From assembly GCF_008087665.1 (NCBI RefSeq), contig NZ_CP042912.1:3596001-3660000 (forward strand): a DNA stretch of 64,000 nucleotides. Reading direction: 5' to 3'. Below the pieces are notes generated by a model. The model saw only the letters and a program-made list of their open reading frames with translations. It made no database searches and was not told where the DNA came from. Source of the stretch: Mariniblastus fucicola (GTDB lineage Bacteria; Planctomycetota; Planctomycetia; Pirellulales; Pirellulaceae). Each line of letters opens with the position of its first letter. Position 1 is the first letter of the stretch. This document shows positions 14,353-34,852 of this stretch, one piece after another. Both the position numbers and the translations under genes were made by a program.

Positions 14353-15579
14353 TCATGCCCCATTCTCTGCCGTAGATTTGGGCAGAACGAGGAAGTCGCA
14401 AACTTTGTCGAACTTATGCCGTGCCCAAGCCTCGGCGCTGATTCCAGCAGAAAGTGCGTTGGCGAGAACGTCCGGCGAAGACGAAGCGACAGAACAGGCC
14501 GAATCGATTCCCCGCTTTAGCATCGAGAAACCTGATCCGTATTGCCCGGGAGAAACGGACTCCATCCCTCCGGCGACAAGGCTCATTAGCTGCAATGAAG
14601 CACGCAGTGGAACTACTGCAAGGTCAAGTGCTTCCGTCGTGGCGGAAGAAATTAGCTGACGACTCAATTGTCTTTCGATCGCATTGGTATCGAACGAAAC
14701 ATGCCGCCTAATCGCACGCAATGTCGATTCTGTTTCGCCACGGCGGGTTTCATCGTCCAGACCCACGATATTTCGCTGCAACATTTCAAGTAGATCCAGC
14801 CGGTCGCAAACGTCTGACAATCCTAGCGCAATCGCTGCATGAGCAGCAACAGCTGCCGTCGCCTCAGAAGCTCCCATGCATGCCAGACCTTCCAATTGAC
14901 GACTGTTCAATAAGAACAGCGAAAAGATTTGCGCATCCAATCGCGTCACTAACGCGTCAACCAATGCTTTGTCGCCGTCAACTCTGGTAATTACGTTTCG
15001 AGTTTGGCAACACTGAAGAAAAACAAGGATTGGCTCGATATCGAAATCGGAGCGTTTCACAGGCGTCCCGGGTTCACCGAATCGTTTTGTGATCTTTGAT
15101 TCGAAAGCTTGAGACAACCCAAACATTGCTGACTCAGCAACAACGCTGCCCGCGATCACCGGCGCGGCCATTGTGTCTTCCCAAAAAAACAACTCCCAAG
15201 TCAGAGCAATTCCAGCGACGCCGACTGCCACGTTACTGATGGTGTTCGCTGTCCTGTCCAGAAATCCAATCTGCGAAAGAAAGCCTATGCAATTCTGGAT
15301 CTCCACAGAATAGGCGACGACATGACCGAGTTTGTGATTGCGACCTTTCAGCCAGGCGAATGCAAACGATCGGATTAACTCTGCGTCTTTGGATCCCGCT
15401 GTTTTCTGATTCAAGGCGGCACGCAGGGCGACAACAAGTTCGTCATCGGCAGTCGTATGGCCAGCGTACTTGTCTGAGAATCCAACTGCCCCAAAGACGC
15501 CTCCGGAAGTTATGGCTGCGGCGGAGTGATCGACCAGCGGAAACTTAAAACTGATTTTTGACTCATTCATGAAAGGCAT
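14353..15579 (-). CDS. hypothetical protein with hydrophobic central helices
   Basis: About 408 residues if translation begins at the ATG at 15579 (MPFMNESKISF); the frame is open 16 codons further. The middle (about residues 110-160) has hydrophobic stretches, SNVAVGVAGIALTWELFFW and MAAPVIAGSVVAESAMFGLS, that could be membrane segments or a buried helical hairpin. The rest is helical and alanine-rich. I recognise no family or catalytic motif. It is convergent with the HEAT-like gene, with only 7 bases between the stops. The start is uncertain because no clear ribosome binding site is seen. Confidence 0.65.
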   Translation of the reverse strand: MPFMNESKISFKFPLVDHSAAAITSGGVFGAVGFSDKYAGHTTADDELVVALRAALNQKTAGSKDAELIRSFAFAWLKGRNHKLGHVVAYSVEIQNCIGFLSQIGFLDRTANTISNVAVGVAGIALTWELFFWEDTMAAPVIAGSVVAESAMFGLSQAFESKITKRFGEPGTPVKRSDFDIEPILVFLQCCQTRNVITRVDGDKALVDALVTRLDAQIFSLFLLNSRQLEGLACMGASEATAAVAAHAAIALGLSDVCDRLDLLEMLQRNIVGLDDETRRGETESTLRAIRRHVSFDTNAIERQLSRQLISSATTEALDLAVVPLRASLQLMSLVAGGMESVSPGQYGSGFSMLKRGIDSACSVASSSPDVLANALSAGISAEAWARHKFDKVCDFLVLPKSTAENGA

Positions 15580-15731
15580 TTCGTTGGTCTGGCAACAATC
15601 TTGATTTTGCCGAGCAAGATCAAGCAATTTAAAGCTGGATCACGCGAATATTGCGAAATCTGGTTGAGACAGTTGCTGCCTTCCTTGAATTTTTGCTGGT
15701 TTATCGGGCTGTTTCAGCATACAGTCAACGC

Positions 15732-16860: not shown

Positions 16861-16932
16861 CACAACGTTCGAATTGCCCACAACGTTCGAATTGCCCACA
16901 ACGTTCGAATTGCCCACAACGTTCGAATTGCG
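16861..16932. repeat. 18-bp tandem repeat, four copies
   Basis: CACAACGTTCGAATTGCC is repeated four times, the last copy ending in G. Because the unit is divisible by three it stays open in frame with the following gene and would encode HNVRIA repeats. Conserved ketosynthase sequence starts only at 16960, so the array is more likely leader DNA than protein. Confidence 0.9.
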
Positions 16933-16959: not shown

Positions 16960-17937
16960 ATGTCAAAACTGACCCATCACTTCCAAATCTCGGCAGCCCA
17001 TTTTGCTGTCCCGCCAGATTTTCAAACGGCGGAAGAACTGGCAAAGGATCTCGATTGCGAAGCGTCATGGATTCACGAAAACGTCGGCGTTTCCAATCGT
17101 CACGTCTGCCAACCAGGCGACGATCCGGCAAAGCTTGCCGCCACCGCGGCTCGGCCGGCTATTGAGAACCTCGGAACGCCGGATTTATTGATTTACTCGA
17201 GCGCGACCGTTCGGCAATGCATTCCAGACACCTCAGTCTTTGTCGCTCGCGAACTCGGCATCAGCGGCGTGCCGACTTACAGCGTCAACGCGACCTGCCT
17301 GTCGTTTCTGGTTGCTCTTCGACACGCCGCGGCGATGATCTCGGATAAAAGCTACAGCAAAATCCTGATCGTCACCGCGGAACTGCCAACTCTCAGCAGA
17401 AATTTCTCCGATCCAAAATCTGCGGCACTGCTCGGTGACGGAGCTGCCGCGGTAATGGTCGAATCGACGACTCGCGACGCCGGAGCATTTTGCTTTCGCC
17501 AAAAAACATGGCCAGAATTTGCAGAGCTGACTCAAATCCGCGGCGGTGGACTGCTGAATCACCCGATGCTGTCCTCGACCAAAGACACGGACTACCTCTT
17601 TGAAATGAGCGGTGAAGTTTTGTTGCGGGCCGCGATCCCGAAACTAAAACGGTTTCTGTCCACGCTGTTGTCCGACGCAGAACTTTCGGTGAAAGATCTC
17701 GATCTGATCGTGCCACATCAGGCCTCCGCCGCCGGAATGAGGTTGCTGGAACGGCTTGGACTTCCGAAAAATCGAACCGTCGACATCCTCGGCGACTACG
17801 GAAACTGTGTCTCAGCTTCGATGCCGATGGCTTTGGCGATTGCCCAGCGGGACGGAAGAATCAAGCCGGGTGACAAAATCCTTTTCCTGGGAACGGCTGC
17901 TGGATTGTCGATCGGAGCGACCGTTCTTCAATGGTAG
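16960..17937 (+). CDS. 3-oxoacyl-ACP synthase III-like (KASIII/OleA-like) condensing enzyme
   Basis: 325 residues of thiolase fold. The ATG at 16960 begins MSKLTHHFQISAAHFAV; an upstream in-frame extension consists of the 18-bp repeat and is rejected. The catalytic triad is visible: Cys113 in SVNATCLSFLVAL, His253 in IVPHQASAAGM and Asn282 in GDYGNCVSASMPMAL. The mid-protein block SAALLGDGAAAVMVE matches KASIII. It should condense acyl thioesters. Being outside any fatty-acid-synthesis cluster and coupled to a short-chain dehydrogenase, it resembles OleA-type or secondary-metabolite condensing enzymes more than housekeeping FabH. The stop overlaps the next start by 7 bases. Confidence 0.88.
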   Translation: MSKLTHHFQISAAHFAVPPDFQTAEELAKDLDCEASWIHENVGVSNRHVCQPGDDPAKLAATAARPAIENLGTPDLLIYSSATVRQCIPDTSVFVARELGISGVPTYSVNATCLSFLVALRHAAAMISDKSYSKILIVTAELPTLSRNFSDPKSAALLGDGAAAVMVESTTRDAGAFCFRQKTWPEFAELTQIRGGGLLNHPMLSSTKDTDYLFEMSGEVLLRAAIPKLKRFLSTLLSDAELSVKDLDLIVPHQASAAGMRLLERLGLPKNRTVDILGDYGNCVSASMPMALAIAQRDGRIKPGDKILFLGTAAGLSIGATVLQW

Positions 17938-19823
17938 TCGGCGAACAGTTGTTAACGTTGGCCCATGAGAGCCTTGGGCAGACCCCGAAGCGAATTTTGG
18001 TCACCGGAGCGACGGGTTTTGTCGGATCGCGAGTCGCCCAAGTGCTTGTCGAGGCCGGACATGACGTCACGATCACCGGTCGCAGCAAGTATCGGATCAG
18101 AAGCGGCGGAAAATGGCGGAAAGCCGACCTGACGTCGAAAGAGGAAGTCTTCGAAATTTGCGAAGGCCAGCAAATCGTCATCCACAGCGGAGCCTTGACG
18201 TCGCCTTGGGGCTCGCTGGAAACGCATCGCCGTGTAAACGTCGCGGGAACGCAAAACGTGCTGGACGCGTGTCGCAAGTTCGACGTTGATCGATTGGTGC
18301 ACGTCTCGTCGACCGCGATCTTTTTTCAGTTTCGCGACCGGGATCGCGTGACCGATCGGACGGAATTTCCGCGAGAATTTTGCTGTCCTTACGCACAATC
18401 CAAAGCGGAATCCGAAAAATTGGTGTCAGACGCGATGGCGGCAGGGCTGAATGCCTATATTGTCCGCGCCAGAGCTGTTTTTGGACCCGGCGACAACGCG
18501 TTGCTGCCCCGTCTGATCGCGGCGTCGAAAGCCGGGCGACTTCGGCAGATCGGAAACGGCGAAAACCTTTGCGATCTGACCTACATCGACAACCTTGTCG
18601 CCGGGCTGATCCTCGCGGCGCGACCGACTGCTCCCAACGGAGTCTGCACGATCACCAACGAAGATCCGGTTCGACTTTGGGACGTCCTGAAAAATGTTCT
18701 GCTGGAGACAACCGGAAAATTTCCGACGAAGAAAGTCCCATATTGGTTGGCGTTGCGGGCCGCCCATTGGGCTGAGTTAAAGCACAGAGTTCTGCGGACG
18801 CCAGGAGAACCGCCGATCACGAGATACGGAGTCGGTTTGCTGGCCAAACAGCAGACTTTCGTTTCCGAAGCCGCAAAACGCGACCTCAGATATCAGCCGC
18901 TGGTTCCGCTCAAAGAAGGAATCCGCCGGACCGTCTCGGATTTGCGACGGCGCCACGAAAGCCCGGACGCGAATCAAGCCTCGGTTGAGGTCAGCTTTTT
19001 TTCAACGGGCTATGTCGAATTCAAACGCAACATCGCAGAACGCGGCGCGAGCGGGGATCTAACGCGGTTTCATGCAACCGTGGCGTTAATCAAACATCCG
19101 ATTCACGGGCTGACGCTGTTTGATACCGGCTACAGCAAGGATTTTTTCGAGGCGACGGCCCGGATGCCGTATCGGCTTTATCGCATGGCGACCAAAGTCG
19201 TGACTCACGAGCAGTGGTCGATCGAAAACTGGCTGAAGAGGGCCGGAATCGAGCCCGATGACATCCGTCGAATCATCATCTCTCATTTCCACGCCGATCA
19301 TATCGGGGCGTTGAGGCGATTTCCCAACGCCGAGCTAATCGCATCGCAGAAAGCCTGGCAGTTCGCGAAAATTCGCAAAGGTTTCGGAGCGGTCAAACGC
19401 GGCATCCTGCCAGATCTCATTCCGCCGGATTGCGATCAACGGCTGCATACGATCAACGAAATGCATGATCCTGGCTTGGGTCCGATTGCGAAATGCAAAG
19501 ACCTGTTTAACGACGGCAGCGTGCGGCTGTTCGATCTCGACGGGCACGCCGACGGACAAATGGGGGCTCTGTTGAATCTGGATGGCTCCCAATGTTTCCT
19601 GTTGGCTGACACGTTTTGGTCGCGAACGGAAATCCAGGCCCGACGTGCGCCGACGTTTGCGTATCGGATGATTGCCGACAACTACAAAGCAGCATTGGCT
19701 TCGCGAAAATCGATCTTTGAGATCCATGAGACAGACCCCGAAATCGAATTTGTGTGTGCTCACTGTCCCGAGTTCGCTCGCGAGCAGCGTTTCGATGCCT
19801 TGCTGGAGCAGGTTCGCGAGTGA
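17931..19823 (+). CDS. fusion of NAD(P)-dependent epimerase/SDR and metallo-beta-lactamase-fold hydrolase
   Basis: 630 residues. Residues about 19-335 are an extended SDR: RILVTGATGFVGSRVAQVL binds the dinucleotide, and Tyr154/Lys158 in CPYAQSKAESEKL are the catalytic pair, similar to 3-beta-hydroxysteroid dehydrogenase/OleD proteins. Residues about 350-628 are a metallo-beta-lactamase fold: the Zn motif HFHADH starts at about His452 (IIISHFHADHIGALRRF), with further ligands near His539 (DLDGHADGQMG) and in the C-terminal CAHCPE. The second half is closest in look to N-acyl-homoserine-lactonase-type lactone hydrolases. It starts within the end of the condensing-enzyme gene, so the two are co-translated. 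I do not know this domain combination from a described pathway. No frameshift separates the halves. Confidence 0.87.
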   Translation: MVVGEQLLTLAHESLGQTPKRILVTGATGFVGSRVAQVLVEAGHDVTITGRSKYRIRSGGKWRKADLTSKEEVFEICEGQQIVIHSGALTSPWGSLETHRRVNVAGTQNVLDACRKFDVDRLVHVSSTAIFFQFRDRDRVTDRTEFPREFCCPYAQSKAESEKLVSDAMAAGLNAYIVRARAVFGPGDNALLPRLIAASKAGRLRQIGNGENLCDLTYIDNLVAGLILAARPTAPNGVCTITNEDPVRLWDVLKNVLLETTGKFPTKKVPYWLALRAAHWAELKHRVLRTPGEPPITRYGVGLLAKQQTFVSEAAKRDLRYQPLVPLKEGIRRTVSDLRRRHESPDANQASVEVSFFSTGYVEFKRNIAERGASGDLTRFHATVALIKHPIHGLTLFDTGYSKDFFEATARMPYRLYRMATKVVTHEQWSIENWLKRAGIEPDDIRRIIISHFHADHIGALRRFPNAELIASQKAWQFAKIRKGFGAVKRGILPDLIPPDCDQRLHTINEMHDPGLGPIAKCKDLFNDGSVRLFDLDGHADGQMGALLNLDGSQCFLLADTFWSRTEIQARRAPTFAYRMIADNYKAALASRKSIFEIHETDPEIEFVCAHCPEFAREQRFDALLEQVRE

Positions 19824-19855
19824 AAGTCTTGCCGTCTGGCGATCCGCACGCTGGC

Positions 19856-20947
19856 TCAATCCTCGGAAATAAATCCGGCGCGAAATGAGTACAGGCATGT
19901 GTGGTCGATCTCGGCAAGTTCCTCTTCCAACCGTTTGTTGCTGCGAATTCTGCGATGGAAGGCTCCGAAGCTTTCCTGCTGATCCAATTTCACCAGAAAG
20001 AATCTTTCGCAGAATCTGGCTTTGGGCGCCGCTGATCGAAGCACGGACTCCCAGATTCGCGCGTAGGTTTCTGGCGGAGCATACGACGAGAAATCCGACA
20101 ACGAGAACGCATCAAATTTTTCCAACGATCGGTTCAAAAATTCGTCGATCGGCATCGAAACGATTTCGACTCGGTCGGCAAATCGCTTGAGCTGCTCAAA
20201 ATTTTCTTCTCGCAAGTGCAGCGGCAGAACGCACTGGCCCGTGTATCGCCCGCGGAACAGCAAATTGGCATAAGGATTTTCGCGAATCAGAGAATGGAAA
20301 GCCATTTTCTCAATGCAGGAACTCAAATAGCCGCCGACATCGAAATCTTTGGGAATCAATTTGGCTCCGGGCTCGCGGATGACTCTGGTCCACAGAAAAC
20401 GATTGGACAACAAACGAAGGAATCGCTTCAGGAAGGGGCCCGACCAATGTTGAAGCCAAAATTCTTTCTGCGATTCCAAATCTTTTGCGTTCCACAGCCC
20501 GTCGATTTTTCGTTGCCGCAGAAAAGTGGTCTTCGACATGTATCGCAGCAACTTTTCCCAGGTCCCGCAATAAAGCACACCACGCTCGATCGTTTTAACG
20601 TGCTTTCGCCACCAGATTTCGCTGTCATTCGGAAGCAGCGGCAGCAATTCTGGTAGTAGTCCAAGCCGCTGATTCGATTTGCGGACTCCAAGGAAGCCCA
20701 GGAAATCCGCATAGTCCAGCGTTTTGTAGGCCGCCAGTTTGAGGGCCAACAGGTGATTTTGAGTCGGATTGAAATCAACGCTGACGATCTTTTTCGGAGC
20801 CGCCGTCAAAAGATCCAGCGTGCGAGCCCCACTTCCGGTGATACAAACCACGCGATCCGCGCTCGACAAACTGAGCACCCGCAACTCGGCTTCGCTGTCT
20901 TCGTTGCTGGAAGAGTAGTTGATTTGATTAAAAAATTGGCGGGTCAT
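19856..20947 (-). CDS. DUF3419 family, BtaA-like SAM-dependent transferase
   Basis: 363 residues from the ATG at 20947 (MTRQFFNQINYSSSNEDSEAE). A longer frame to 21043 would overlap the divergent Rieske gene. The SAM-binding core is ADRVVCITGSGARTLDLL, then IVSVDFNPTQNHLLALKLAA and LDYADFLGFLG, the characteristic start of DUF3419. Founding members (BtaA) transfer a 3-amino-3-carboxypropyl group from SAM to diacylglycerol in betaine-lipid synthesis; no btaB-like methyltransferase is seen here. LSDFSSYAPPETYARIWESVLR is the conserved C-terminal region. It converges on the SDR-MBL fusion. With its neighbours it suggests a modified lipid product, but the real acceptor is unknown. Confidence 0.82.
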   Translation of the reverse strand: MTRQFFNQINYSSSNEDSEAELRVLSLSSADRVVCITGSGARTLDLLTAAPKKIVSVDFNPTQNHLLALKLAAYKTLDYADFLGFLGVRKSNQRLGLLPELLPLLPNDSEIWWRKHVKTIERGVLYCGTWEKLLRYMSKTTFLRQRKIDGLWNAKDLESQKEFWLQHWSGPFLKRFLRLLSNRFLWTRVIREPGAKLIPKDFDVGGYLSSCIEKMAFHSLIRENPYANLLFRGRYTGQCVLPLHLREENFEQLKRFADRVEIVSMPIDEFLNRSLEKFDAFSLSDFSSYAPPETYARIWESVLRSAAPKARFCERFFLVKLDQQESFGAFHRRIRSNKRLEEELAEIDHTCLYSFRAGFISED

Positions 20948-21023
20948 CTGATGCTCGCATCCGTGTATCCTTGACGACTCAGCATGGCAGAATTGGAACG
21001 GCGGCACACCTGTTAGAGCTAAA

Positions 21024-22064
21024 GTGTTTTCATCAATCGGCAACTTATCACAGCACTGGCACGTGGTCGCGACCGCGTCTGAAATTGGGACCGGTCGCTC
21101 GTTGAAGCGAAAAATCTACGGTCAACCGCTGCTGATTTGGCGGGACGAAAGCCGGAAACTTCATGTGCTTTTGGATTGCTGTGCCCACAAGCGAGCTCCG
21201 CTCGAAGTCAAAGATTTTCACCAGAATCAAATCGTCTGCCCCTATCACGGCTGGGAATATGACGCCGAAGGAGCCCTGACGAAAGTTCCCAGCTCGCCCG
21301 ATGCCTGCGATAAGCTGAAATGCTCGCTCCCGTCGTTCCCTGTTGTTGAGTCCGCTGGATTTGTCTGGGTTTACCTCGGTGATGGGACGCCCGAAAACGA
21401 AATACCGGACATCGAAGAGTTTATCGGAAGCGGCTGGGGCTCGAAATTCAAAACGATGAGCTTTGAGACGACGGAAGAGCTGTTGATTGACAACTTCATG
21501 GATCCGACGCATACGGCGCTGGTGCACGACGGATTGATACGGAGCAGCCAAAATTCCACATGGCATGAGATGTCGATCACGACGCATTCGCACGGAGTCC
21601 GAGTCGACTATGCGGAACAGGAAGAATCGGTTGGCATTGGACTGAGGATGCTGTTCGGCCGGTCGATGAAAGTCCGACACGCGGACGAGTTTTTGATGCC
21701 GAATCTGGTCAAAGTCACTTACTGGTTCAACGGCGAACCACGGTTTCTGGCTCTGATTGCGTGCACACCACTGGAAGGGCTCGACGCCGCTCCAACAAGG
21801 GCTTTTGTGCAGCTGCGTTATCGATTTGGAGCCTTGAACTACGCCATCAAGCCGTTTCTCGGCGTGTTGGCCAACAAAGTGCTCAAGCAGGACTTCGAAA
21901 TCACCCGCGACCAATTTCGCAACATGCAGGATTGCCCGGAGCAAAAGGAGCACCTCGTGGCTGCCGACGCGGTTGCCGCAAGAGTCTCAGTCTTTCGACA
22001 GAACGCTGTGCAGAAGCTTGCCCCGCCGGATCAGAGCACGCAAACGCTGAGATTGCAGTTCTGA
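21024..22064 (+). CDS. Rieske non-heme iron oxygenase
   Basis: 346 residues, GTG start at 21024. The Rieske 2Fe-2S ligands are Cys53-x-His55 (CCAHKRAP) and Cys72-x-x-His75 (VCPYHGWEYD). The mononuclear iron site is DNFMDPTHTALVH, with His163, His168 and a nearby Asp. The layout matches the oxygenase subunits of the vanillate demethylase/pheophorbide oxygenase/KshA group, which hydroxylate or desaturate hydrophobic ring substrates. It would need a separate ferredoxin or reductase, not present here. It is transcribed divergently from the DUF3419 gene; the starts are 76 bases apart, so the two probably share a control region. Confidence 0.9.
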   Translation: MFSSIGNLSQHWHVVATASEIGTGRSLKRKIYGQPLLIWRDESRKLHVLLDCCAHKRAPLEVKDFHQNQIVCPYHGWEYDAEGALTKVPSSPDACDKLKCSLPSFPVVESAGFVWVYLGDGTPENEIPDIEEFIGSGWGSKFKTMSFETTEELLIDNFMDPTHTALVHDGLIRSSQNSTWHEMSITTHSHGVRVDYAEQEESVGIGLRMLFGRSMKVRHADEFLMPNLVKVTYWFNGEPRFLALIACTPLEGLDAAPTRAFVQLRYRFGALNYAIKPFLGVLANKVLKQDFEITRDQFRNMQDCPEQKEHLVAADAVAARVSVFRQNAVQKLAPPDQSTQTLRLQF

Positions 22065-24151: not shown

Positions 24152-27548
<3,397 letters not shown>

Positions 27549-27749: not shown

Positions 27750-27858
<109 letters not shown>

Positions 27859-29354: not shown

Positions 29355-30869
29355 CTATTCTTCCTGATCCCTGCCAGATTTCCATAGTTGAATTTCATCC
29401 GTATCGTTGGGTGAAAAAGGACCGGGAGTCGTGCGACCGTTGGCCACATCCCTTTCGAGCATGGCAAGAAGTCTTGCAGCGATATCAGGTCGGGATTCAT
29501 AGACGTTCCGTGACTCATCCTGATCGGATCGCATATCATAGAGTTGAGCCTCTGGCTGATCTTTCGAATTGTTTTCATTCGGACCACTCCACCCGCCCGA
29601 ACCTCGAGCCAGTACCAGTTTCCATTCGGGAGTCCGATAGGCGAAATGGCCATTGATGGCATGATGGACAATTCCATCCCGTTTGGATTCGAACTCTTCT
29701 CCCATCATCGCGGCAAGAAAACTGACGCTGTCCTCGCAACTCTTGGCTGGTGGCTTCAAGCTCAGACAATCCGCGACCGTTGCAAAAATGTCCGTCAACC
29801 CAACCAGTTCGCCGCAACGTGAGTCGTCTTCCACAACTCCAGGCCAACGAATCACCAAGGGTACGCGATGTCCTCCATCCCAAATGTCAGATTTGGACCC
29901 GCGAAACCCAGCACTAACCGAGTGCCCCTGTTTGGCGAGTTGACCAATTTTCGCTTGTCTTGAGCAACCGTTGTCGCTGCTGAAAATTACAATCGTGTTG
30001 TCTCTAAATCCGCGTGCATCAAGCTGTTTCAACACCGTACCGATCACATGATCCGTTTGCATCACAAAATCGGCGTAAGCACCCAATCCACTGGCTCCCT
30101 GCCACGCTTTGGTGGGCACGATCGGAGTGTGCGGCGAGCCCAACGGTAAAAACAGGAAAAAAGGCTGATCTGATTCTGCTTGTTGGTTGATAAATTCGAC
30201 CGCTTTCGACTCCAACGTAGGCAGAAAACTGATGACGTCCTCATGACGCACAACGGTATCCTGCTCAATGATTGCCTTCATGCTCCTCGCGTGATGGATT
30301 CCAAAAAAGACATCAAACCCACGCGAGATAGGACCATCGGGAGACGTTGAATTGACGGGCGGAGTATATTTGAATTTCTTGCCAACAAGTTCAATCCCGG
30401 GATTCTGGGGATCCGTGAACTTCATATTCAAGTGCCATTTGCCGAGCAGCGCAGTCCTGTACCCGTTATCTCCGAGAAAATTTCCAATCGTTGGCCGATC
30501 GGGAGCAATGAGGCAGTCCTCAAAACCTTGAGCGACTCCGTTTTGAAGTTTTGTTCGCCAAGCGTACCGTCCCGTGAGCAGACCATATCGGGTCGGGGTA
30601 CAGACAGAGGATCCAGAATGGGCGTCAGTGAAGGACATTCCTTCTTTCGCCAACTGGTCAATGAAAGGAGTCTTGATTTTTCCGTTTTCAGGATTGAAGC
30701 ATTGGACATCACCGATGCCAAGATCATCGCAAAGAATTAGAACGACGTTCGGTTTCTGAACGTCCAGTGTCCTGGAAGGCCCCAAAGCCTCATTGCTCGA
30801 TCCACACGTCACCGCGACCATTACGGAAAGCGAAATAAGAAAAGCAAAAATTGCTGACTGTCGGGTCAT
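29355..30869 (-). CDS. arylsulfatase, probable lipoprotein
   Basis: 504 residues. The N-terminal hydrophobic segment ends VMVAVTCGSS; Cys22 fits a lipobox, so membrane anchoring on the periplasmic side is likely. PNVVLILCDDLGIGDVQCF binds metal. The formylglycine motif is C-T-P-T-R at Cys90 (SVCTPTRYGLLTGRYAW). LLGKWHLN, GSPHTPIVP and IFSSDNGCSRQ complete the active site. It belongs to the arylsulfatase A-like branch. Its 3' end is about 100 bases from the truncated IS but the gene itself is intact. It is possibly co-oriented with the PEP-CTERM gene at 31119 on the same strand, 250 bases upstream. Confidence 0.94.
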   Translation of the reverse strand: MTRQSAIFAFLISLSVMVAVTCGSSNEALGPSRTLDVQKPNVVLILCDDLGIGDVQCFNPENGKIKTPFIDQLAKEGMSFTDAHSGSSVCTPTRYGLLTGRYAWRTKLQNGVAQGFEDCLIAPDRPTIGNFLGDNGYRTALLGKWHLNMKFTDPQNPGIELVGKKFKYTPPVNSTSPDGPISRGFDVFFGIHHARSMKAIIEQDTVVRHEDVISFLPTLESKAVEFINQQAESDQPFFLFLPLGSPHTPIVPTKAWQGASGLGAYADFVMQTDHVIGTVLKQLDARGFRDNTIVIFSSDNGCSRQAKIGQLAKQGHSVSAGFRGSKSDIWDGGHRVPLVIRWPGVVEDDSRCGELVGLTDIFATVADCLSLKPPAKSCEDSVSFLAAMMGEEFESKRDGIVHHAINGHFAYRTPEWKLVLARGSGGWSGPNENNSKDQPEAQLYDMRSDQDESRNVYESRPDIAARLLAMLERDVANGRTTPGPFSPNDTDEIQLWKSGRDQEE

Positions 30870-31118
30870 CGGCGTTCTATTCTATTGGTCACAAATCAAC
30901 CCCGGAGATAAAACGCGCCACAACACCAAATCCTGACTTCACGGTCTTCCTTCTCTGTCGTGTTGATGGCACATTTGAGGCCAGAACCAGTCTAGCAGTC
31001 CTGACAACCTGGATTCAGGGGTGGGCAAATTCGATCCCAAAAAAAGCCGCGATGAGTCTTCTCACCACGGCTCCCAAGTTAACTTTTTGACGCGTCTCGG
31101 CTTTGACCAAAACTACGC

Positions 31119-31919
31119 TTATCGACGACGTCGCATGAAAGCGGCAATGCCGAACATCCCCATCAACACGACGCTACTTGGCTCAGGAACGGCCTCTGTG
31201 AAAAATGTAATGTTTGTAAGTGAGCTCGCCGCGTTTACTGCGTTGTCGTTTGATAGAAAATTAAAACGACCGTTACCGTTACCCCCGTCTTCGGCGGTCA
31301 ACGCAAGCCCGGCCAAACCGTTGTCGATCCAGCCCTGTGCTGTTGCGGCATCGATGGTGAACGTAATATTGGTTGGCGCAGGAGTCCCGAAGCCAGCTTG
31401 TGAACCGATTTCAGAAAAAGCACCCAAAACGTTAGCAACATCGGTGCCAGAGCTGTCAACCCAGCTAATGTTTGATGCGGGATCATTGAATTCAGCTCGG
31501 TGAAGGAAACTCACTGATCCGTCCGTTGCCGGCGTGTCAGCGCCCGTGATGGTGTCAGATCCAGGATCCCAACCCGCGTTTCCAATCGCGATTTCGTGCA
31601 ATCGGATCGTATCTTCAGCAGAACCAACGTTCCCCGGTTGTCCGTTGGCAACTGCAATCGTGACTTCCGCACCGGTCGTTGTTATTCCGCTCGCGGAGTT
31701 AACGTCGAAAAAGTACAGCATAAAATTGTCGACTCCGCCGGAGTTGACGCCAATCAATGCGCCAGTAGCTGTATTGCCGCCATTGTTGTCATTCCGAAGC
31801 GTGTCCGGAGTTGAGATAAGACGAGCGTCATGATCCCAAGCAACAATTTCGTCGCCATAAGATTCTGCCGTGAGCATAAACATCAAAGCGATGCATGTGA
31901 CATTTGCGATAAATTTCAT
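31119..31919 (-). CDS. PEP-CTERM exported protein
   Basis: 266 residues from the ATG at 31919; the frame is open further but residue 74 of that frame begins the signal peptide MKFIANVTCIALMFMLTAES. The mature part is a beta-rich region resembling DNRLRE/carbohydrate-binding-type modules (AWDHDARLISTPDTLRNDN). The C-terminus is the sorting tag VPEPSSVVLMGMFGIAAFMRRRR: PEP motif, transmembrane helix and Arg cluster, which an exosortase-type enzyme would process. The protein is likely displayed in the exopolysaccharide layer. Divergent from the dockerin-sulfatase gene. Confidence 0.9.
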   Translation of the reverse strand: MKFIANVTCIALMFMLTAESYGDEIVAWDHDARLISTPDTLRNDNNGGNTATGALIGVNSGGVDNFMLYFFDVNSASGITTTGAEVTIAVANGQPGNVGSAEDTIRLHEIAIGNAGWDPGSDTITGADTPATDGSVSFLHRAEFNDPASNISWVDSSGTDVANVLGAFSEIGSQAGFGTPAPTNITFTIDAATAQGWIDNGLAGLALTAEDGGNGNGRFNFLSNDNAVNAASSLTNITFFTEAVPEPSSVVLMGMFGIAAFMRRRR

Positions 31920-32266
31920 TGAAAATCCTGAAGCAGAGGTGAAAGTGGAAAGCTGAACCCCGCGAAGGGGTCTTATGATAATATATGCAAACGGTTTCAC
32001 CGCCAAGCTTTTAGCGTGGCGGATGTGCTTTTTTCCGCAACTCACCAACCAACGGATGTCGCCTGCTGGGACTAACTGCGTGAAATTTTGAACTCTGTGA
32101 TCCCGAATTTTTAATGGTATTGAACCAACTAAGGACAAGTCCTACTGATTGACGTCCTTTAAGAGCAACCTTTCCAACATTACTGCTTTTACTTCACACA
32201 GCGCTTCAGATTCAATCTGGCGATCTCGCCCCTTTTCCCTTTATCCCTTCTAGCGTACTTAAATAA

Positions 32267-34852
32267 ATGAGCTCCAACATGCAACTGTGTCTGCTACGCG
32301 TTGGCCAATTCATCATAGCCCTGACGCTATTTGCGTTCGTCTCGGAATGTGAAAACGAATCGCAGGCACAAGAAACTCGCCCCAACGTAATTTTGATGAT
32401 GGCCGACGACATGGGTTGGGGCGATGTGTCGTTTTCCGTTCGCCTTGGCGAAGACCTTTCTGGCACCGACATCAACTACGGTGGCACACCGCATTGGAGC
32501 ATGCCCCACCTTGAGACGATGGCCTCCAATGGTTTGAAGTTCAGCAGGATGTACAGTCAGCACACGGTTTGCAGTCCAACCCGTGCGAGCGTTTTGACCG
32601 GTCGTGCTCCCCAGCGACAAAGCATCACGTTTGCGAACACCGGAAAAATGCAAAACCGTGAAATTACCGTCGGCGAGTATGCTAAATCATTGGGTTACAC
32701 GACGGGGCTGTTTGGAAAATGGCACTTGGGTTCATTGACTCGTGATGTCAGTGACGCCAATCGCGGCGGTCCGGGTTCGTTTAGTGTTTACTCGACGCCA
32801 TTGAACAACGGATTTGACGTGGAGTACGTCACAGAATCCAAAGTTTCAACTTACAACCCAACGACAAGTGGGATGACAACAACGACCCGCTATTGGACAG
32901 GTCCCGGACAATCCGTACCGCTAAATTCTCCGAACATGCAGGGCGACGACAGCGCAATCATCGCTCGCGAAACAAACGACTTCATCACCAACGCTGTTAA
33001 TGACAGTCAACCTTTCCTTGCAATTGTCTGGTTCCATACACCCCACAAACCGGTCAATGATCCCAACGGAAATCGTGACAACATCGCAGCGTACACCTAT
33101 GCGATGCAGGATCTCGACTCAGCCATCGGCCAGATTCGAACTCATGTTGAGTCGCTCGGAATCGCCAATGATACGATCCTGATGTTCACCTCAGACAACG
33201 GCGCCGAAGACGGGCAAAATTACAATCCGGCAGGACTTCGAAACAACAAACGGGAACTGCATGAGGGTGGTGTTCGCGTTCCCGGAATCATCGAATGGCC
33301 CAATACGATCTCAGCGGGAACCACTCATACGCCGATGGTGACATCGGACTATCTGCCAACACTGCTGGATATATGGGAAATCGAACCGGTCGATAGTCGT
33401 CCAATCGATGGCGTCAGCATGGCGAATACGATCTTCCTTGATCGGGATGCAACGCGAGATCAATCGATCGTTTTCAAATCGACCAATGGACATCAATCGG
33501 TCATTGGAGTCGACGGTCGGTACAAATTGATCTCGACCAACAACGGAGACAACTGGGAGCTCTACGACCTGGTTCTGGACTTTGGAGAACAAAATGCTGT
33601 GGCAAATTCAGCATCGATTGGTTCTGCCGACGTGGCAACACAGACGATCTTCAACAGTCTATTGAACGACTACAGTCTATGGGAGACCTCCGTCGCGGCC
33701 AGCTCGCAAAGTGAATTCACAGGCGACTACAGCAACCGCGTTGCGTCGAATTTCGGAGGCACTGTCAGTGTTGAGCCTCCTGAGAATCTTGGTAACGGAA
33801 ATGTTGCGACGGGCGGAACACCAATTCTGTACCTCGAGCGACAACATGCAACTTTACGGGCCGACGTCGAAGTTAACTCTTTGGGTGAAGAGGGCACGTA
33901 TTCGATCGGCGACTCTGGCATGCTCGGGGAAGGATTGGTTGTCAACAGCTACCTGATGCACTTCAACCCGACCAGTTCCAATCAGGTGAATGCAACTGCC
34001 AAATTCACTTTTGAAGACAAAATCGCCGGAGTGATCGGAGGCTACGACCTATTGGTCGCCACGGACGAATTAAGTTACGCTGACCCAAACTTTGAATCTT
34101 CACTCAATCGGCGAATGGATACTGCTGACGGATGGGAAATTCTTGACGACGGCTACACAATTGAGTTCGATTTGCGTGCAACGAACTTTGTTGACGAGGC
34201 TCGCATTTTGACCGCTTCGTCACTGAACCAGGTGCCTGATCCAATTACGATTGAAACCGTTATCGGCGATGGCGTTGTTCAACGTTCAATGGTGACCAGC
34301 GTCAACGTGATGTTTAGCGCGGCAGTCAGTATCGGCCCCGAAGCCTTTGAACTTGAGAAACGAGGTACTGACGGCGGTGACGTCGAGTTGAGCTCAGCGA
34401 TTGACAATTCCGGTCAGGGTCCGAGCGTAGTCCTCACATTCTCTGGTCCGTTCGCCGAAGCTTCTGGATCTCTGATTGACGGTAACTATCAATTGACGGT
34501 CCATGGAGACCAGATTACTGACGGTCAAGGCGTCGCACTCGACGTCGATGGAGACGGCAATCCTGGCGGAGTGCTTGTGATTGGCGATGAAGAATCCGAA
34601 GCATTCTTTCGTCTATTTGGTGACTCCGATCAGAATCGAATCGTTAATGTTGTCGACCTGTTGGGATTTCGCCAAGCCTACCAGTTGATGTCTGGTGATG
34701 CGTCTTTTGACGCCAGCTTTGATTCGAACGTAGACGAGACGATCGATATTTTTGACTTACTCCGCTTTCGGCAAAACTACCTGGAAACGATGCCGTTCAA
34801 TGAGCCCCCACCCCCTCGTTCGTTTCGAAAAACTCCGGTTCGATCCAAATAG
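32267..34852 (+). CDS. multidomain secreted sulfatase with C-terminal dockerin-like repeats
   Basis: 861 residues. Signal peptide at about 1-35. The sulfatase domain spans about 38-480: NVILMMADDMGWGDVSF, formylglycine motif C-S-P-T-R at Cys102, LFGKWHLGS, WFHTPHKPV and FTSDNGAEDGQNY. The middle (about 490-780) is beta-rich, including a possible LamG-like or Ig-like segment. The tail carries two dockerin-type calcium-binding repeats, GDSDQNRIVNVVDLLGFRQ and FDSNVDETIDIFDLLRFRQ (about 786-850), so the enzyme may dock to a cohesin-bearing partner. Together with the divergent PEP-CTERM gene it suggests a cell-surface polysaccharide-degrading system. Confidence 0.92.
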   Translation: MSSNMQLCLLRVGQFIIALTLFAFVSECENESQAQETRPNVILMMADDMGWGDVSFSVRLGEDLSGTDINYGGTPHWSMPHLETMASNGLKFSRMYSQHTVCSPTRASVLTGRAPQRQSITFANTGKMQNREITVGEYAKSLGYTTGLFGKWHLGSLTRDVSDANRGGPGSFSVYSTPLNNGFDVEYVTESKVSTYNPTTSGMTTTTRYWTGPGQSVPLNSPNMQGDDSAIIARETNDFITNAVNDSQPFLAIVWFHTPHKPVNDPNGNRDNIAAYTYAMQDLDSAIGQIRTHVESLGIANDTILMFTSDNGAEDGQNYNPAGLRNNKRELHEGGVRVPGIIEWPNTISAGTTHTPMVTSDYLPTLLDIWEIEPVDSRPIDGVSMANTIFLDRDATRDQSIVFKSTNGHQSVIGVDGRYKLISTNNGDNWELYDLVLDFGEQNAVANSASIGSADVATQTIFNSLLNDYSLWETSVAASSQSEFTGDYSNRVASNFGGTVSVEPPENLGNGNVATGGTPILYLERQHATLRADVEVNSLGEEGTYSIGDSGMLGEGLVVNSYLMHFNPTSSNQVNATAKFTFEDKIAGVIGGYDLLVATDELSYADPNFESSLNRRMDTADGWEILDDGYTIEFDLRATNFVDEARILTASSLNQVPDPITIETVIGDGVVQRSMVTSVNVMFSAAVSIGPEAFELEKRGTDGGDVELSSAIDNSGQGPSVVLTFSGPFAEASGSLIDGNYQLTVHGDQITDGQGVALDVDGDGNPGGVLVIGDEESEAFFRLFGDSDQNRIVNVVDLLGFRQAYQLMSGDASFDASFDSNVDETIDIFDLLRFRQNYLETMPFNEPPPPRSFRKTPVRSK

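Follow-up and report, generated by a model that had tools for sequence, protein, structure and literature searches.

We analysed a 64,000-nucleotide stretch of the Mariniblastus fucicola genome (contig NZ_CP042912.1, positions 3,596,001 to 3,660,000; hereafter the window, numbered from its first base), carried by a single contig of 6.57 Mb (genome G000), and evaluated four neighbouring genes encoding a ketosynthase (KS), a fusion of a short-chain dehydrogenase/reductase (SDR) with a metallo-beta-lactamase (MBL), a DUF3419 protein and a Rieske oxygenase (Table 1). These four genes are a real, conserved biosynthetic cluster, and in the KS and SDR/MBL fusion we recognise the planctomycete version of a cross-phylum cassette. 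As the original prediction had read from the letters alone, all four sit within 5 kb, at the positions and on the strands it gave, and all are intact. The KS possesses the Pfam domains ACP_syn_III and ACP_syn_III_C with an intact triad (Cys113, His253, Asn282), and its stop codon is overlapped by 7 bases (ATGGTAG) by the ATG of the fusion. The latter is a genuine two-domain protein (Epimerase/3Beta_HSD, then Lactamase_B, in Pfam) with a YxxxK motif and a complete set of MBL metal ligands (HFHADH, GH, AD, H), so that the proposed overlapping SDR-hydrolase fusion holds for both domains. In the Rieske protein, which ends in a VanA_C domain, the CxH-x16-CxxH cluster and the H/H/D (2-His-1-carboxylate) iron site are both intact, and its gene lies on the opposite strand from the DUF3419 gene, divergent from it as had been proposed. 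The DUF3419 gene proper probably has its start codon at 20947 (first base of the ATG), where homology in the alignment begins. Upstream of the KS gene an 18-bp unit (CACAACGTTCGAATTGCC) is repeated perfectly in tandem, with 3.9 copies at window 16861-16931 that end 28 bp before the start codon; a regulatory function or a tendency to slippage is possible.

Table 1. Features of the four-gene locus, in window coordinates.
Feature	Position	Strand	Details
KS, KASIII-fold ketosynthase, MxnB/CorB-related family	16960-17937	+	Pfam PF08541/PF08545; closest NCBIfam PRK07204
SDR/MBL fusion	17931-19823	+	OleD-like SDR ~17931-18989; AttM-like metallo-beta-lactamase ~18990-19820
DUF3419 protein, divergent clade of BtaA-type S-adenosylmethionine (SAM) 3-amino-3-carboxypropyl transferases	19856-20947, frame open to 21043	-	PF11899, 217 bits
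Divergent intergenic region, DUF3419/Rieske	20948-21023 (76 bp)	.	Limits assume the inferred DUF3419 start (20947)
Rieske non-haem iron oxygenase, VanA/KshA-type C-terminal domain	21024-22064	+	PF00355 + PF19112

Conservation and cross-phylum distribution

Comparing gene neighbourhoods among planctomycetes, we found that the clustering exceeds chance, with all four genes kept in G731, a member of another family of the class, and three of the four (KS, fusion and DUF3419) in G329; the predicted single cluster is thus retained in relatives rather than lost. The order in G731 is Rieske (-), DUF3419 (+), KS (+) and SDR/MBL (+), such that the divergent Rieske/DUF3419 pair is preserved and relocated to the opposite side of the KS and fusion, and BLAST identities to the window proteins are 57% for the KS, 60-61% for the fusion, 56% for DUF3419 and 51% for the Rieske. 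Genes flanking the cluster differ between G731 and the window, and the conserved unit is therefore these four genes. With the MBL half as query, the fusion was recovered from 4 of the 199 genomes searched in the phylum and from 14 of the 397 searched in the class; it is missing from most same-family relatives, which in a first sample matched only ordinary OleD-like SDRs.

Surveying genome contigs with an MBL profile (A3) and scoring partners with purpose-built family models, we obtained 80 loci in which the MBL was accompanied by an SDR (74), a KS (67), an F390-synthetase-like ligase (TIGR02304; 61), a PRK06849-like ATP-grasp protein (43) and a FemX/MprF-like protein (39), with rarer partners including a second, ketosphinganine-reductase-like SDR (15), a fatty-acid-hydroxylase-family protein (10) and a Rieske protein (6). 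These counts are lower bounds because they are conditioned on MBL presence and several contigs are short. The cassette occurs in at least 8 phyla (Bacillota, Bacteroidota, Chloroflexota, Cyanobacteriota, Planctomycetota, Verrucomicrobiota, Bdellovibrionota and Pseudomonadota, including Legionella) and also in Melainabacteria, and we found no description of it in the literature searched (open-access PMC text only). The window locus belongs to it, possessing a PRK07204-type KS beside an OleD-like SDR and an AttM-like MBL, whereas the ATP-grasp, F390-like ligase and FemX/MprF-like protein, which are not universal in the cassette, have no match anywhere in G000. The original suggestion of a planctomycete-specific lipid or signal consequently fails for the KS/SDR/MBL core and survives for the four-gene form, seen only in planctomycetes.

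In most other phyla the SDR and MBL are separate adjacent genes, fusion being found in planctomycetes and at one Lujinxingiaceae locus (L123, 8921-11844), where the fusion precedes a KS that groups with MxnB/CorB; this is probably an independent fusion event or a transfer. An unfused planctomycete variant (L227, L228, L230, L232 and L234) carries an SDR, an HpnI-like glycosyltransferase, a KS and an MBL (that of L227 coming from a genome search, not from the family model), with no adjacent ATP-grasp or DUF3419 gene. Lipid-type tailoring genes in other cassettes include the fatty-acid-hydroxylase family, HpnI-like glycosyltransferases and ketosphinganine-reductase-like SDRs.

Family placement of the enzymes

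Against solved structures the KS scored highest with MxnB (166 bits) and CorB (157), followed by FabH (124) and OleA (47), and in a tree of 46 KS sequences MxnB and CorB branch within the cassette family and away from FabH and OleA, grouping with four cassette KS at an SH-aLRT of 99. This nesting suggests that MxnB/CorB originated within the cassette family; the cassette KS noted with the nested myxopyronin and corallopyronin ketosynthases are those of L040, L070, L114 and L123. The catalytic glutamate of OleA (E117) reaches into the partner subunit, and the corresponding position is isoleucine in the window KS, isoleucine, leucine or valine in 40/40 cassette KS and glutamate in the genome's own OleA; OleA and PpyS are reported to have glutamate where MxnB/CorB have valine (PMC4578411). 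The match to the OleA family model PRK09258 (99.6 bits) falls below its cutoff of 285, a cutoff exceeded by a true OleA elsewhere in G000 (C1:3313290, 446.5 bits), and a better OleD match lies at C1:3683985. Family score, tree and missing glutamate thus rule out an OleA identity, so that of the predicted "KASIII/OleA-like" enzyme the KASIII domains and triad stand, and its OleA likeness gives way to an MxnB/CorB likeness. With the KS outside OleA, and a true OleA and better OleD match elsewhere in the genome, assignment of the locus to ole is rejected, in line with the earlier view that, lacking OleB and OleC, this is not a standard ole cluster.

For the SDR half, OleD is the best-matching named family, yet the NF042422 score (212.8 bits) is well under the equivalog cutoff of 580, and the MBL half is closest to acyl-homoserine-lactone (AHL) lactonases of the AttM/AiiA kind, also below cutoff (NF045700, 67 bits against 390; NF045699, 42 bits against 375). 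The Rieske protein has SxtT as its nearest solved structure (92 bits), is 52% identical to that of G731 in the tree alignment and was the only match in G000 to a genome search with its own sequence. The tree does not support a single common Rieske for all cassettes, and oxidation of this type seems to have been recruited to the pathway more than once because the clades differ, within the limits set by long branches.

The DUF3419 protein was expected to be a BtaA-like SAM transferase; the domain is indeed present, but BtaA itself is ruled out by the tree and by a BtaA/methyltransferase pair elsewhere in the genome. Its clade, shared with G731, G329, G145 and G234 and rare in the phylum, is split from canonical BtaA at 100/99 support, and no N-methyltransferase adjoins the window gene. 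The second DUF3419 of G000 (C1:4924580, 418 bits) is followed by a methyltransferase gene in the BtaA/BtaB arrangement (pair at about C1:4923.6-4925.6 kb). A structure model of the window protein built from a two-sequence alignment reached a pLDDT of 40 and was not used. Enzymes of the BtaA type use SAM as donor of an amino-acid-like group, and diacylglycerol is the acceptor for BtaA. In G145 and G234 the window-type DUF3419 adjoins a serine-palmitoyltransferase-like enzyme (L159 3455-5948 and L160 7661-9991; best model NF047600, 381 and 349 bits, under the 640 cutoff), pairs that are possibly a second head-group system. The clade would then lie repeatedly beside enzymes that build non-glycerol long-chain backbones.

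Alternating modules and a candidate pathway

Comparison of the 11 planctomycete genomes that carry the fusion, a sample in which several assemblies are incomplete and several genomes are related, shows that the DUF3419 and ATP-grasp genes exclude one another: three (G000, G731 and G329) possess the window-type DUF3419 and have no ATP-grasp genome-wide, whereas eight carry an ATP-grasp gene beside the KS and fusion and have no window-type DUF3419. A perfect exclusion for this 3/8 split has a chance of 1 in 165 if relatedness is ignored. Among the eight, a FemX/MprF-like gene adjoins the ATP-grasp in six, lies on another contig in G395 and is not seen in G394, which has the ATP-grasp only; genome-wide searches found it in neither G000 nor G329. 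In the tree of KS plus fusion, G731 is the sister of G000 (100/100) and G329 branches elsewhere (92/94); the DUF3419 state therefore needs two changes.

The FemX/MprF-like protein (~390 residues, no Pfam family) shares 10-13% sequence identity with FemX and MprF, and its AlphaFold2 model (pLDDT 85) shows the tandem-GNAT fold of aminoacyl-tRNA-dependent transferases, matching Sbb17 (Z 17.2; 3.5 A over 256 residues), FemX (Z 16.8; 4.2 A, 284) and MprF (Z 15.7; 3.4 A, 248). Enzymes of the FemX/MprF type aminoacylate lipids, peptides and antibiotics (PMC2922099). Most likely, DUF3419 replaces the ATP-grasp plus FemX/MprF-like module, and given this fold and the BtaA-type SAM chemistry, parsimony suggests that the two modules probably both install an amino-acid head group.

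Gene content, intact sites, conservation, family placement, the existence of the cross-phylum cassette and the DUF3419/ATP-grasp exclusion are direct tool results, from which we infer the chemical steps, their order and the product. A modified acyl product, as first suggested, is plausible, and our best-supported proposal, though with slightly less than even confidence, is of a locus that produces a lipid, or a lipid-like signal, with an amino-acid head group and a backbone other than glycerol. The KS would catalyse a Claisen condensation that joins acyl chains into a beta-keto (probably alpha-alkyl) compound whose ketone the SDR half would reduce to a hydroxyl, after which the MBL half would hydrolyse a thioester or lactone form and release the hydroxy acid; DUF3419 would then move 3-amino-3-carboxypropyl from SAM onto the hydroxyl or the carboxyl of this acid, in the way BtaA modifies diacylglycerol, and the Rieske enzyme would hydroxylate or oxidise the chain or head group. 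The predicted addition is C4H7NO2, or +101.048 Da, on the KS/SDR-dependent product. Several points weigh against this proposal besides the make-up of the 11-genome sample: the genes sit on both strands, and a promoter scan of the locus returned no promoter-like site; the acceptor of the DUF3419 transfer is putative, and we know of no characterised member of this clade nor, to our knowledge, of a product for any cassette member; a fold match alone does not prove tRNA-dependent transfer; and the Rieskes of the window and G731 fall apart from those of the ATP-grasp cassettes, with SxtT between, so their role may differ.

Among the alternatives, the KS could join two beta-ketoacyl chains as MxnB/CorB do, yielding an alpha-pyrone or related ring that the other enzymes modify into a signal or antibiotic. 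The closest solved relatives, nested in the cassette family and likewise without the OleA/PpyS glutamate (PMC4578411), argue for such chemistry, but MxnB/CorB use chains bound to polyketide synthase (PKS) carriers, none of the neighbouring window genes that we examined is a PKS, and the most constant partners, the OleD-like reductase and lactonase-like MBL, better fit a reduced or opened product, so we regard a ring as unlikely. A good deal less probable is that the KS and fusion form a self-contained lipid pathway, with DUF3419 (a betaine-lipid gene) and the Rieske (a catabolic oxygenase) as unrelated passengers. Those two do form a separate divergent unit, and most genomes with the core lack them; against this, all four genes stay together in G731 even though the pair has moved, DUF3419 also lies near the KS and fusion in G329, and a gene type so rare in the phylum sits in a genome that has its own BtaA and methyltransferase pair elsewhere.

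We give slightly less credence again to a variant olefin/beta-lactone pathway with MBL and an AMP ligase in place of OleB and OleC. OleD is the closest named family to the SDR, and most non-planctomycete cassettes include an F390-like adenylating enzyme, so that KS, SDR, ligase and MBL mirror OleA, D, C and B in class; the KS placement and residue, the OleA and better OleD match elsewhere, and the missing F390-like ligase in G000 all speak against it. Lastly, the lactonase, dehydrogenase and Rieske oxygenase could be read as a degradative or quorum-quenching island, given that AHL lactonases are closest to the MBL and that Rieske oxygenases are common in catabolism, but the condensing enzyme and SAM transferase are biosynthetic and the KS is among the most constant cassette partners (67/80 loci), making this very improbable.

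Extending the amino-acid-headed lipid proposal beyond planctomycetes gives a broader and rather unlikely claim: a cross-phylum, apparently undescribed lipid class, built by an MxnB/CorB-type KS and not through acylation of glycerol or by serine palmitoyltransferase, with a modular head-group step that would be aminoacyl-tRNA-dependent (FemX/MprF-like plus ATP-grasp) in most lineages and replaced at least twice in planctomycetes by a SAM-dependent aminocarboxypropyl transferase. Were our proposal for the locus right, it would expose a widely distributed, undescribed lipid or signal pathway, illustrate cleanly how one head-group enzyme can be exchanged for an unrelated enzyme that achieves a comparable result, assign DUF3419 proteins a second role in addition to betaine-lipid synthesis, and place the ring-forming enzymes of myxopyronin and corallopyronin inside a much broader lipid-associated ketosynthase family.

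Window context and related systems

Elsewhere in the window, a 23S rRNA gene (24156-27546) contains a group I intron (Rfam RF00028, 88 bits; 26042-26341) and is followed by a 5S gene (27751-27858); no 16S rRNA was found between 10 and 32 kb of the window. Two sulfatase genes (29355-30869 on the minus strand and 32267-34852 on the plus strand) flank a PEP-CTERM protein gene (region 29355-34852), and a 424-residue open reading frame (14353-15627) has no Pfam match and a weak, antiporter-type NCBIfam match.

Compared with known systems, the window KS resembles MxnB/CorB of myxopyronin and corallopyronin synthesis in family, Cys-His-Asn triad and the hydrophobic residue at the OleA-glutamate position, and differs in its partners, an OleD-like SDR and an MBL in a neighbourhood with no PKS seen. 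The OleABCD olefin/beta-lactone pathway likewise combines a KASIII-fold KS with an OleD-like SDR, but the window has neither OleB nor OleC, its KS is not OleA and has no glutamate, and an OleA and a better OleD match lie elsewhere. With BtaA/BtaB synthesis of the betaine lipid DGTS the locus shares the DUF3419 aminocarboxypropyl transferase family, here in a separate clade, beside the KS and fusion and without an adjacent methyltransferase. The MprF/FemX transferases correspond in fold to the sister-cassette protein that DUF3419 appears to replace, a gene absent from the window genome. The Singulisphaera OlsH/OlsI ornithine-lipid pathway differs in using a GH3-like ligase and an alpha/beta hydrolase, neither family being in the window cluster, and provides the planctomycete precedent for an amino lipid whose head-group step is carried out by an unrelated enzyme (PMC12493201).

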